A stretch of 64,000 nucleotides of DNA from Martinezella tropici (GTDB lineage: Bacteria > Pseudomonadota > Alphaproteobacteria > Rhizobiales > Rhizobiaceae), in contig JUHI01000002.1 in assembly GCA_000799755.1 (NCBI GenBank), positions 310,001-374,000 of the forward strand, read 5' to 3'. Below, in pieces: positions 30,014-32,691 of the stretch. Position 1 is the first letter of the stretch, and each line of letters opens with the position of its first letter. The notes under the pieces were generated by a model. That model was given only the letters and a program-made list of their open reading frames with translations, ran no database searches and was not told the DNA's origin. A program made the position numbers and the translations under genes.

Positions 30014-30697
30014 ATGGAGGCTTTGCGGAAGAACATTCTCGGGGAAGGAATGGGTACGCCGATCGAATGGCTGGCCAAGCCTGTTTCCGTGGCGATCGTG
30101 CTCTTTGCCCGCGCCATTACCGCCGTCAGGGCCATCTGGCCGGAGAGCGGCATGCGCACCCACCGCTGCGTCTATTTCGCCAACCATTCCAGCCATGGCG
30201 ACTTCATCCTGATCTGGACTGTGCTGCCGCCGCGTCTGCGCCGGCGGGTGCGCCCGGTGGCAGGTGCCGATTATTGGCTGAAGTCATCGCTGAACAGTTT
30301 TATAGGCCGGGATGTCTTCAATGCCGTGCTGATCGAGCGGGATCGCGAGGCGCGCAAGGAGGACCCGGTCACACAGATGACGCAGGCGCTCGACGCCGGC
30401 TCGTCGCTGATCCTGTTTCCGGAGGGCACGCGCAATCTCACGGAACAGCCGCTGCAGCCGTTCAAGAGCGGGCTCTTCCATCTTGCCAAGGCACGCCCGG
30501 ATATCGACCTCGTTCCCGTCTGGATCGACAACCTCAATCGCGTCATGCCCAAGGGCGAGTTCGTGCCCATCCCGCTGATCTGCACCGTCACCTTCGGTGA
30601 GGCTTTGCATATCGGCGAGACCGAGGAGAAGACGGAATTCCTGGCGCGAGCCGAAGCGGCGCTGCTGGCGCTTGCGCCGAAGCGGGCAGGAGATTGA
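30014..30697 (+). CDS. PlsC-like 1-acylglycerol-phosphate acyltransferase
   Basis: The product has 227 residues. An N-terminal hydrophobic segment (about 20-37) is followed by the acyltransferase motifs: NHSSHGDF (HX4D) and LFPEGTRN (FPEGT). A later in-frame ATG at 30050 is a possible start. The family transfers acyl chains to lysophosphatidate or related lysolipids at the inner membrane. It is the first of four tightly packed genes (CdsA-like, small membrane protein, CDP-alcohol phosphotransferase), so it probably supplies a dedicated lipid precursor rather than being the main housekeeping PlsC. Confidence 0.9.
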   Translation: MEALRKNILGEGMGTPIEWLAKPVSVAIVLFARAITAVRAIWPESGMRTHRCVYFANHSSHGDFILIWTVLPPRLRRRVRPVAGADYWLKSSLNSFIGRDVFNAVLIERDREARKEDPVTQMTQALDAGSSLILFPEGTRNLTEQPLQPFKSGLFHLAKARPDIDLVPVWIDNLNRVMPKGEFVPIPLICTVTFGEALHIGETEEKTEFLARAEAALLALAPKRAGD

Positions 30698-30699
30698 GC

Positions 30700-31650
30700 A
30701 TGGAAGCAGCCAGCGCCGATCTCATTCATCTTGTTCTTGGCATTTTCGGCGTGCTGATCGTCGCCTCCATCATCGGCTATGTGCTGGAACAGCGCCTGTC
30801 GCCTGATGGATCGAACGCCGCGATCGAAAACCTGAATGCGCGCATCAAGGCCTGGTGGGTGATGGTGGTGCTGATCGGCATCGCCTTCATCGCGGGGCGG
30901 GCCGGCGTCATCCTGCTCTTTGCCTTCTGCTCCTTTGCGGCACTGCGCGAGTTCGTGACGCTGATCAACACGAAACGGGCGGATCATTGGGCGCTCGCGG
31001 CCGCCTTCTTCGTGGCGCTGCCGGTGCAATATTACCTGCTCTGGGCTGAGCAATACGGCATCTATTCGATCTTCATTCCGGTCTACGCCTTCCTTTTCAT
31101 GCCGATCATCGCGGTGCTGCGCGGCGATACCGAGCGGTTTCTGGTGCGGATCGCCGAGGTGCAATGGGCGCTGATGATCTGCGTCTTCTGCGCCTCGCAT
31201 GTGCCGGCGTTGCTGACGCTGCACATCCCCGGCTATGAAGGCCGCAACGTGCTGCTGATCGCCTTCCTGGTGATCGTCGTGCAGCTCAGCGACGTCCTGC
31301 AATATGTCTGGGGCAAGCTGTTCGGAAAGACGAAGATCGCGCCACGGCTGTCGCCATCGAAGACGGTGGAAGGCTTTGTCGGCGGCGTGGTCAGTGCCTC
31401 GCTGATCGGCGCGGCGCTCTGGTGGGTAACGCCGTTCACGCCGCTGGAGGCCGGGCTTCTCGCCTTTGTCATCACGATCATGGGCTTCTTTGGCGGGCTC
31501 GTGATGTCGGCGATCAAACGGGATCGCGGCGTCAAGGATTGGGGCCACCTGATCGAGGGGCATGGCGGGCTGATCGACCGGCTGGACTCGGTCGTCTTCT
31601 CCGCGCCGATCTTCTTCCATCTCGTACGCTTCTGGTGGTCCGTGTCATGA
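30700..31650 (+). CDS. CdsA-like phosphatidate cytidylyltransferase
   Basis: The product has 316 residues from the ATG at 30700, two bases after the plsC-like stop. About eight hydrophobic segments are visible. The CDS family signature is complete near residues 270-297: SAIKRDRGVKDWGHLIEGHG followed by GLIDRLD. The usual upstream Asp-rich motif is here QLSDVLQYVWGKLFG. It would activate phosphatidate to CDP-diacylglycerol for the phosphotransferase two genes downstream. It is likely an accessory CdsA, given the gene company. Confidence 0.9.
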   Translation: MEAASADLIHLVLGIFGVLIVASIIGYVLEQRLSPDGSNAAIENLNARIKAWWVMVVLIGIAFIAGRAGVILLFAFCSFAALREFVTLINTKRADHWALAAAFFVALPVQYYLLWAEQYGIYSIFIPVYAFLFMPIIAVLRGDTERFLVRIAEVQWALMICVFCASHVPALLTLHIPGYEGRNVLLIAFLVIVVQLSDVLQYVWGKLFGKTKIAPRLSPSKTVEGFVGGVVSASLIGAALWWVTPFTPLEAGLLAFVITIMGFFGGLVMSAIKRDRGVKDWGHLIEGHGGLIDRLDSVVFSAPIFFHLVRFWWSVS

Positions 31651-32048
31651 GCGGAAAGCTGAAAGCGCTTGCCGGCCGCAGCATCGTGCATGTGCTTTTC
31701 GCCTTCCTCGCCATGGGCGGCTGGGCCGTTTTCGCCAATCGCCTGCATCCCATGCCACGGCCTCTGATTGCCGGCTTGGTGCAGGGCCTCCTTTCGGGCT
31801 GTCTGACGTTATTCCTGAAATCGGTGGTCGAGGCCTTATCGCGACAGTTCGGTGGCGTTACACGCCTTTGGGCGCCGCCACTGATCGCCTGCCTGGGCTC
31901 CGCGACCATCCTGATCGTCATCCATGCGCTCAGCGGTACGCCGGAAATACTGAAGACGATTGCCGTGCCGCTGCTGGTCTCTTCCAGTTATGCGGCCATC
32001 TACAACTATTCGATATCGGGCGGGAGGCAGCGAAGCCATGACGGGTGA
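31647..32048 (+). CDS. Small integral membrane protein in phospholipid cluster
   Basis: The product has 133 residues from an ATG that overlaps the cdsA-like stop as ATGA; the longer open frame upstream is a shadow. Four hydrophobic stretches are visible, about 13-27, 41-60, 77-93 and 98-117 (for example VHVLFAFLAMGGWAVFA and LIACLGSATILIVIHAL). I do not recognise a family. Its end overlaps the start of the CDP-alcohol phosphotransferase gene. The coupling on both sides suggests a partner or small subunit for the lipid enzymes. Confidence 0.82.
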   Translation: MSGKLKALAGRSIVHVLFAFLAMGGWAVFANRLHPMPRPLIAGLVQGLLSGCLTLFLKSVVEALSRQFGGVTRLWAPPLIACLGSATILIVIHALSGTPEILKTIAVPLLVSSSYAAIYNYSISGGRQRSHDG

Positions 32049-32691
32049 GGGAACTGGCGACAGGCGGCCGCTGGCGAGCCGCAACACGCGATGGGCTCAG
32101 GCGCTGGCGCGGCGTATGACCGCGCTTTCGGCAACGCCGAACCAGATATCGCAGGCGAGCATGGCCATGGCGGCGCTGGCCGCGGCCTCGTTCTGGCTCT
32201 CCGGCGCGGCTGGCAGCGCGGGGACACGGGTGGTCTTGCTGATCCTTGCCGCCTTGTTCTGCCAGTTGCGGCTCCTCTGCAATCTGCTTGACGGCATGGT
32301 GGCGGTCGAAGGCGGAAAGGGCGAGGCCGACGGGCCTTTCTGGAACGAGTTTCCCGATCGCATCGCCGATATCCTGATCTTTGCCGGCATCGGCTATGGC
32401 ATCGCAATGCCGGGGCTGGGATGGGCGGCCGCAGCCCTTGCCGTGCTGACCGCCTATGTTCGCGAGCTTGGACGCGCCACCGGCAATCCCAGCGATTTCG
32501 GCGGCCCGATGGCCAAGCAGCATCGGATGGCCGTGGCCACGGGTGCGGCCCTTCTCTCCATCATCGAGGCCCTCTGGAGCGGTGGTAGCTGGGTTTTGAC
32601 GATCGCGCTCTGGATCGTCGCCATCGGATCGGCAGCGACAGTCCTGCGGCGCGCGGGCAATCTGATCCGGCATTTGAAGGCCAGAGGGTGA
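32038..32691 (+). CDS. CDP-alcohol phosphatidyltransferase-family protein with altered motif
   Basis: The product has 217 residues from an ATG that overlaps the previous gene by 11 bases. Several transmembrane segments are visible. The family motif D-x2-D-G-x2-A-R-x8-G-x3-D-x3-D appears in altered form: Asn82, Asp85-Gly86, Ala89, Val90 in place of Arg, Gly99, Asn103 in place of Asp, and Asp107. Two of four acidic ligands are therefore Asn. As I recall, E. coli YnbA also has Asn at these places, next to a CdsA-like YnbB, so this may be a distinct subfamily rather than a dead enzyme. Product unknown. Confidence 0.85.
   Translation: MTGEGTGDRRPLASRNTRWAQALARRMTALSATPNQISQASMAMAALAAASFWLSGAAGSAGTRVVLLILAALFCQLRLLCNLLDGMVAVEGGKGEADGPFWNEFPDRIADILIFAGIGYGIAMPGLGWAAAALAVLTAYVRELGRATGNPSDFGGPMAKQHRMAVATGAALLSIIEALWSGGSWVLTIALWIVAIGSAATVLRRAGNLIRHLKARG

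Follow-up and report, generated by a model that had tools for sequence, protein, structure and literature searches.

A conserved four-gene cluster in Martinezella tropici that appears to be a variant of the YnbAB/Arc1 kind, with a CDP-alcohol-phosphotransferase-like protein of altered metal site

The stretch considered here, referred to as the window, comprises 64,000 nucleotides of Martinezella tropici (contig JUHI01000002.1 of assembly GCA_000799755.1, positions 310,001 to 374,000 of the forward strand), and carries at 30014-32691, on its plus strand, four open reading frames (ORFs) designated A, B, C and D (Table 1). The initial annotation had described a four-gene phospholipid cluster on one strand, with overlaps of 4 and 11 bases at the last two junctions, and this layout proves exact, the overlaps lying at 31647-31650 (B/C) and 32038-32048 (C/D). 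Sequence comparison indicates that the cluster is real, conserved and active-looking, and places it with the YnbAB/Arc1 kind, as a variant; it does not stand alone as a new pathway.

Table 1. Genes of the cluster and the residues of protein D discussed in the text (positions in the window).
Feature	Position	Strand	Description
Gene A	30014..30697	+	PlsC/AGPAT-like acyltransferase, Arc1E homologue; alternative ATG start at 30050
Gene B	30700..31650	+	YnbB/Arc1F-type CDP-diacylglycerol synthase (predicted); ATG start; TTG also at 30694
Gene C	31647..32048	+	133-residue membrane protein, four predicted long helices, no known family
Gene D	32038..32691	+	217 residues, CDP-alcohol-phosphotransferase-like, N82/V90/N103
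D Arg78	32269..32271	+	Four residues ahead of N82; from the tally of Asn/Asn proteins
D motif N82-L-L-D85-G86-M-V-A-V90-E ... G99-P-F-W-N103-E-F-P-D107-R108	32281..32361	+	Aligned with D68, D71, R76, D89, D93 and R94 of M. tuberculosis PIP synthase
D R142 ... K160, R163	32461..32526	+	Aligned with K135, R152 and R155 of the PIP synthase acceptor pocket
D R205	32650..32652	+	Aligned with R195 of PIP synthase (acceptor phosphate)

Protein D is a homologue of the cytidine diphosphate (CDP)-alcohol phosphotransferase family, but not a canonical member of it. Measured against the family motif D1xxD2GxxAR...GxxxD3xxxD4, it keeps D2, both glycines, the alanine and D4, and has N82 at D1, V90 at the arginine and N103 at D3; the residues singled out by the initial annotation (Asn82, Asp85, Gly86, Val90, Asn103 and Asp107) were all confirmed by alignment. 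No Pfam family matches D, PF01066 included, even at E 0.05, whereas E. coli YnbA and P. aeruginosa Arc1A do match PF01066. Several plasmid records label relatives of D "CDP-alcohol phosphatidyltransferase family protein", despite PF01066 missing D. The AlphaFold model of D (mb8248085b692; predicted local distance difference test, pLDDT, 90) shows the six-helix fold of the family. In VIA-align it reaches Z 18.5-20 to phosphatidylinositol-phosphate (PIP) synthases and AF2299 and 17.8 to DIPPS, followed by choline/ethanolamine phosphotransferases (11.4-14.9), phosphatidylglycerol-phosphate synthase (12.0-12.5) and phosphatidylserine (PS) synthase (11.2-11.7), with the first unrelated row at 7.8. 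The D profile matches 6h53 at E 1.3e-13, and Foldseek also places the model among CDP-alcohol phosphotransferases. Scores against the NCBIfam models for PIP synthase and archaetidylinositol-phosphate synthase are 44 and 60.6 bits, with cut-offs of 170 and 180, respectively.

In the profile alignment, D68, D71, R76, D89 and D93 of the M. tuberculosis PIP synthase correspond to N82, D85, V90, N103 and D107 of D, and R94, K135, R152, R155 and R195 to R108, R142, K160, R163 and R205. According to the published excerpts on the mycobacterial enzyme, D68, D71 and D89 hold Mg-1, D89 and D93 hold Mg-2, the alpha-phosphate is contacted by R76, and R94 is critical; the phosphate of inositol phosphate is taken to be bound by R155 and R195 (PMC6506517, PMC4634129). 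The acceptor-phosphate residues R94, R155 and R195 are thus present in D, as R108, R163 and R205. The genome encodes three separate PF01066 enzymes, taken from their sequences for PgsA-, PssA- and Pcs-like proteins, two of which have the ordinary Asp/Arg/Asp motif while the third reads DGIDGPIAR.

The same positions were tallied over 150 distinct proteins, many of them from related species. The motif used for this allowed either Asp or Asn at the D1 and D3 positions and fixed D85, G86, A89, G99 and D107, and position 90 served for sorting, so that these positions are not new evidence there. Val or Ile occupies position 90 in 104 proteins (V/I-type), and Arg in 46, comprising 44 YnbA-type proteins and two ordinary outgroups (L184, L245). 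N82, N103, R78, R108, R142, K160, R163 and R205 occur in all 104 V/I-type proteins. The YnbA-type proteins share both asparagines, R78 and the arginines at the R155 and R195 positions (44/44) and nearly always the lysine at the K160 position (43/44), and have Val, Ile, Leu or Met at the R94 position. The two asparagines, whose restriction to this strain the initial annotation had named as a refuting outcome, are conserved across both groups. The likeness to YnbA that it pointed out is right for the two asparagines, Asn standing at both positions in E. coli YnbA (NALDGMLARECNQQTRLGAILNETGD), but Arg is kept where D has Val90, so that Val90 separates the subfamily of D from YnbA. An arginine four residues ahead of the first Asn was present in 148 of 148 Asn/Asn proteins tallied and in none of 33 Asp/Asp proteins (38 loci, less five without a motif match); because 29 of the 38 loci are best PF01066 matches, taken as mainly PgsA, this contrast is mainly one with the PgsA family. 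Asp is found at D1 and D3 in L180, L182, L183 and L184, four of the weaker matches to the D profile, and L180 and L182 keep Asp at D1, D2 and D3 and carry Gly at D4, the presumed catalytic base.

Conservation was followed over several samples of genomes. Among 61 genomes (the own genome, 36 of the genus and 24 from other families of the order), 40 contain some relative of D (E 1e-3). A close form (66-100% identical) is present in 24 of the 37 genus genomes, and the order A-B-C-D recurs in all 20 of their loci fetched besides the window, 12 near serA and/or mnmA and eight elsewhere; in the window itself, serC and serA precede the cluster and mnmA follows it. A scan of a species-level genome collection yielded at least 592 confirmed relatives of D, and the counts for named loci given here refer to the best 80 of these, which span Rhizobium, Mesorhizobium, Ensifer/Sinorhizobium, Neorhizobium, Bosea, Nitratireductor, Paracoccus, Oceanibacterium and others. 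The arrangement A-B-C-D is found in 74 of the 80 (in one with C in two pieces), A-B-D without C in five, and C and D only in one, at a contig end, which is also the one locus short of the A-type acyltransferase (79/80). N82, N103, D85 and D107 are present in all 80. Five residues were part of the search itself, N82, D85 and G86 through one of its two patterns and K160 and R163 through the second, and are not independent in these loci; N103, D107, R78, R108, R142 and R205 belong to neither pattern. A recount of the 80 loci with a looser pattern gave 79 Asn/Asn/Asp/Arg lines and one odd line, the latter taken as a pattern slip because the stricter listing prints the ordinary motif for all 80.

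In 11 same-genus comparisons, the ratio of nonsynonymous to synonymous substitution rates (dN/dS) was 0.03-0.27 for A-D, with saturation for C against L067. Decay or a strain-specific mutation of D is ruled out by both asparagines in 80/80 loci and the low dN/dS, and these results bear out the earlier view that D is not a decayed enzyme. With the joint occurrence of A-B-C-D, neither outcome that the initial annotation had named as refuting, changes confined to this strain or a separation of the four genes in related genomes, has come about. The results support the conclusion that A-D form a dedicated unit under purifying selection. No widely recurring fifth gene was found in 63 loci (L092-L154): ORF clusters outside A-D recur in at most about eight loci, and other large ORF clusters overlie A-D in other frames or on the opposite strand. 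Relatives of D of any type are also carried by 135 of 72,556 plasmid records, of which 101 are from Rhizobium and 116 hold relatives less than 60% identical.

Genes A and B constitute the predicted CDP-diacylglycerol supply pair. A matches the Pfam Acyltransferase family PF01553 (E 1.8e-19; 70 bits, cut-off 23), reaches 46 bits against TIGR00530 (cut-off 103), and contains H-x4-D within NHSSHGD as well as FPEGTR. B matches CTP_transf_1 (PF01148, E 1.9e-66). A second, separate PF01148 gene is present in the genome and is taken for the housekeeping cdsA because its neighbours, named from translations, are presumably UppS-like and RseP-like. The match of B to CdsA is confined to the C-terminal part (41% over 121 residues for the own copy and 38% over 138 residues for E. 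coli CdsA), and BLAST found no match between the N-terminal half of B and housekeeping CdsA. Identity to E. coli YnbB (38% over 302 residues) and to Arc1F (66% over 301 residues) includes the N-terminal half. The N-terminal half of E. coli YnbB is itself reported to be unlike CdsA (PMC7018664, PMC6362211), and the similarity of B to CdsA is divided in the same way. According to the same two reports, YnbB makes CDP-diacylglycerol in vitro and can sustain MPIase, but it does not stand in for CdsA in the synthesis of bulk phospholipid; for phosphoglyceride-linked enterobacterial common antigen, ynbB is described as dispensable (PMC8609368). A reported interaction of mammalian AGPAT2 with CDS, which promotes flux (PMC8616899), offers a precedent for the pairing of A with B.

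Arc1F belongs to the P. aeruginosa genes PA2541-36, named arc1A-F (antagonism resistance cluster 1) and needed to survive attack by the type VI secretion system (T6SS) of Burkholderia (PMC8926400). The locus used here (L241) was located by a 21-mer of the published PA2541 deletion primer, which matches one of 25 genomes of one genus. In L241 this 21-mer and an 18-mer from a second primer lie on either side of an Asn/Asn YnbA-type gene. Downstream lie genes for a hydrolase/methyltransferase, a dual-specificity-phosphatase protein (with an additional PAP2 match below the Pfam cut-off), a 150-residue protein, a PlsC and a CdsA-like protein; A is 53% identical to this PlsC over 201 residues. The protein at the arc1D position (about 150 residues, L241:8233-8682 and equivalents) lies between YnbD- and PlsC-like genes in nine aligned loci. 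A tree built on 47 B-type proteins separates 45 YnbB-like members from two CdsA proteins with support 99/98. B of the window type forms a group of 13 rows (100/100), which falls together with Arc1F within a clade of 31 rows (100/100) and a subgroup of 27 (95/89) whose inner order is open. The identities of A to its relatives trend in the same way.

Gene C accompanies D in 74 of the 80 named loci and in one more at a contig end. In L041, from another family of the order, the B and A next to C and D are more distant ones, while L186 carries the pairs C-D and A-B on opposite strands; the B proteins of both loci fall outside the 31-row Arc1F clade. Among the loci examined, C occurs beside V/I-type D only, and it was not found beside YnbA-type D in the class-sampled and YnbA/arc1 loci fetched. 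The window protein has no Pfam match, and hhalign gave a probability of 0.12 and no homology to the 150-residue arc1 protein. Chains of the Tim17/22/23 family rank first against the model of C (Foldseek E 0.4-1.2; Z up to 7.0), within the noise of helical bundles, and C of L186 matches DUF4235 over 37 residues, below the family cut-off, a match that C of the window does not share; both likenesses are weak leads.

The wider family of Asn/Asn proteins includes a second type of D, with Arg at position 90, to which E. coli YnbA belongs. Seven same-genus genomes carry the order D-A-B without C at a different site (D 43-46%, B 55-56% and A 41-43% identical). The 37 genus members (G000-G036) divide into 24 with close D, seven with the D-A-B form, three with a YnbA-type gene only, and three with neither. 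The seven D-A-B genomes also carry a second D, 30% identical and of YnbA-type in those fetched, and each of the three YnbA-type-only members has a YnbB-type B in its genome. The 24 close-form genomes are without a second D type, which could be a clade effect. Twelve same-genus genomes were chosen for a comparison of D with B: the nine with Asn/Asn D have YnbB-type B, and the three without D show a CdsA-type match only.

Of 385 class-sampled genomes, 81 are matched by the D profile at 1e-5 and 25, own included, below 1e-20, the other 56, with weaker matches only, not being counted as members. Twenty of the 24 other strong-match loci were fetched: a B-like gene accompanies D in 18 of them, joined by an A-like gene in 16; L202 and L204 show no A- or B-like gene in the stretch (12 kb for L204), L203 has B only, and L201 meets a contig end. 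In one class genome, three more weak matches to CDP-alcohol phosphotransferases fall inside 22 kb (G097:C11:237376-259127) and may mark another lipid gene cluster. A YnbA relative was detected in 25 of 299 phylum-sampled genomes (E 1e-10); in the 15 loci fetched plus L241, A and B occur together in 15 of 16, with YnbC- and YnbD-like genes as well in 10 of 16. The tree of 54 D rows has long branches and no fixed root and does not settle the sister relation of the two D types, but it recovers a V/I-type clade of 17 rows (99/99) and an R-type clade of 31 rows (94/99), with D of the window outside the YnbA clade. V/I-type D pairs with at least two B lineages. Because B is close to arc1 and D is not, and because of this pairing, we infer an exchange of YnbA-YnbC-YnbD for a C-D cassette, the PlsC-YnbB supply pair being common to both arrangements.

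On balance, we lean towards reading A-D as a self-contained, accessory phospholipid branch, apart from the housekeeping enzymes, that builds a phosphatidyl lipid from a phosphorylated acceptor, an arginine perhaps standing in for one metal. To judge from its family and motifs, A would acylate lysophosphatidic acid to phosphatidic acid, which B, as reported for E. coli YnbB, would convert into CDP-diacylglycerol for local rather than bulk use; the biochemistry of YnbB and the divided similarity of B to CdsA are the grounds for proposing a private supply that feeds an unusual headgroup enzyme. D, whose fold and pocket were computed, would then transfer the phosphatidyl group to a phosphate-bearing alcohol such as a polyol phosphate or sugar phosphate, with Asp107 as the likely base. 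The retained phosphate pocket suggests such a phosphorylated acceptor. Two of the four Asp ligands are Asn and an Arg lies one helical turn earlier, so that D probably uses one metal plus arginine; the loss of two carboxylates and gain of one arginine by the metal site suggests this replacement. C, whose gene overlaps that of D and travels with it, may work alongside D in the membrane or may transport the lipid that D makes. The lipid would be accessory and, given the homology with arc1, likely to protect the envelope, perhaps against the lipases of competitors.

Several observations weigh against this reading. The activity of D on CDP-diacylglycerol is not assured, because the solved M. tuberculosis enzyme uses D1 and D3 to hold metal and the R76 contact is lost in D. 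In L204, a YnbA-type relative missed by the tally motif, D1 is Asn but D3 and A89 are both Thr and the -4 residue is Lys, which departs from the signature. C is without an informative homologue, and five of the 80 named loci and the seven L034-type clusters are without C. PF07994 (inositol-phosphate synthase, Ino1) was found in 0 of 61 genomes, own included, against 5 of 14 controls, other sources of inositol phosphate being outside the search; inositol phosphate, the best-known acceptor of this type, is probably not supplied by that enzyme and is therefore weakened, and not favoured, as the acceptor of D. With respect to defence, the arc1 defect persisted whichever single effector of the attacker was mutated, the lipases Tle1 and Tle3 among them, and the authors of that work give the cluster a broader role (PMC8926400); arc1A is reported to contribute to resistance against lipase effectors as an auxiliary beside arc3A (PMC12663445). 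A lipase-specific role is thus unsettled even for arc1. The kinship of D with Arc1A is also distant, the two falling in separate clades, so that a defence role for the present cluster would rest mainly on A and B.

That D is a pseudo-enzyme, which through loss of D1 and D3 no longer catalyses and instead binds CDP-diacylglycerol or regulates or anchors B, would accord with the replacement of two of four metal ligands and of the R76 contact and with the failure of Pfam to recognise it. We nevertheless judge this unlikely, as D85 and the base D107 persist in all 80 named loci, R108, R142, R163 and R205 persist in all 104 V/I-type proteins, where an acceptor pocket would be needless in a non-enzyme, and a YnbB-type B accompanies Asn/Asn D wherever it occurs in the 12 genomes tested. 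Improbable, too, is the idea that the module joins a sugar-1-phosphate to CDP-diacylglycerol to give a sugar-pyrophosphoryl-diacylglycerol, comparable to the first MPIase intermediate, with D as the missing sugar-phosphate factor. YnbB supports MPIase rather than bulk phospholipid, the authors of those studies allow for an unknown factor in the incorporation of N-acetylglucosamine phosphate (PMC6362211, PMC7018664), and the phosphate pocket of D is kept; however, deletion of ynbB in E. coli is reported to leave the MPIase level unchanged, CdsA performing the step, and the 63 loci L092-L154 show no recurring sugar gene near the cluster.

A role in lysophospholipid repair, in which A and B rebuild CDP-diacylglycerol from lyso-lipids released by phospholipases and D passes it to a normal headgroup, would fit the aid that arc1A gives against lipase effectors (PMC12663445) and the near-constant presence of the A-type acyltransferase. 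Repair would not call for an extra headgroup enzyme whose active site is altered and which has C as its partner, and the lysolipid effect is reported for Arc3 and not Arc1 (PMC8926400), which leaves this explanation with little probability. Least credible of all, in our judgement very improbable, is ordinary redundancy, that is, spare genes for the synthesis of phosphatidylglycerol, PS, phosphatidylcholine or phosphatidylinositol: the activities of A and B look standard by their Pfam families, but the genome already holds its three other PF01066 enzymes and another PF01148 gene, and in the trees neither D nor B groups with the PgsA, PssA and CdsA rows included there. The accessory phospholipid branch remains the preferred reading of A-D. 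A bolder extension of it is doubtful at present: the Asn/Asn proteins YnbA, Arc1A and window D might represent a class of CDP-alcohol phosphotransferases with arginine for one catalytic metal, whose V/I subfamily makes a phosphorylated-headgroup phospholipid not yet described in proteobacteria, the C-D cassette having been swapped onto conserved PlsC-YnbB genes.

The open-licence PMC literature searched names no lipid product of ynbABCD or of this cluster, that on rhizobial CDS and gene clusters holds nothing on an A-B-C-D cluster, and the excerpt of a Brucella BvrR paper mentions no such cluster. The excerpts of PMC8926400 and PMC12663445 give no mechanism for the protection by arc1, and PADLOC matched 0 of 4 of the proteins A, B, C and D. 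The cluster ties into the question of how arc1 protects cells, and its four-gene version, in plant-associated bacteria and without the arc1 hydrolase, methyltransferase and phosphatase genes, offers a simpler system for finding the lipid. The Asn/Asn plus Arg signature permits a direct test of whether the enzyme superfamily works with a changed metal site.

In relation to known systems, the initial annotation had proposed a dedicated, possibly undescribed headgroup pathway. The dedicated, conserved unit stands, and the lipid headgroup role stays an inference; the cluster is not a lone undescribed one, as Arc1 has a published T6SS-resistance phenotype and E. coli YnbB a published biochemistry. 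PIP synthases (mycobacterial and Renibacterium), AF2299 and DIPPS share with D the fold (Z 17.8-20) and the acceptor-phosphate arginines; in contrast to PIP synthase, D has Asn for two metal-binding Asp and Val for R76, and scores far under the family cut-offs. Housekeeping CdsA resembles the C-terminal part of B, but leaves the N-terminal half unmatched and falls in a separate clade (99/98). The E. coli ynbABCD operon likewise has an Asn/Asn YnbA adjoining a CdsA-like YnbB, but is without PlsC and C and has YnbC and YnbD, and its YnbB is only 38% identical to B. The remaining counterpart is arc1, which shares the PlsC (53% to A), Arc1F (66% to B) and a protein resembling CDP-alcohol transferases in which D1 and D3 are Asn and the -4 residue is Arg. 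Its hydrolase/methyltransferase, phosphatase and 150-residue genes were not found beside the window cluster (serC and serA to mnmA), whereas the window has C, unrelated to the 150-residue protein, and a D that belongs to another clade and carries Val90 instead of Arg and Arg108 instead of a hydrophobic residue. By sequence, A corresponds to Arc1E and B to Arc1F, D is related to Arc1A/YnbA but deeply separate from them, and Arc1B-D are missing. What is new here is that B groups with Pseudomonas Arc1F, and that the cluster can be seen as a rearranged relative of arc1.

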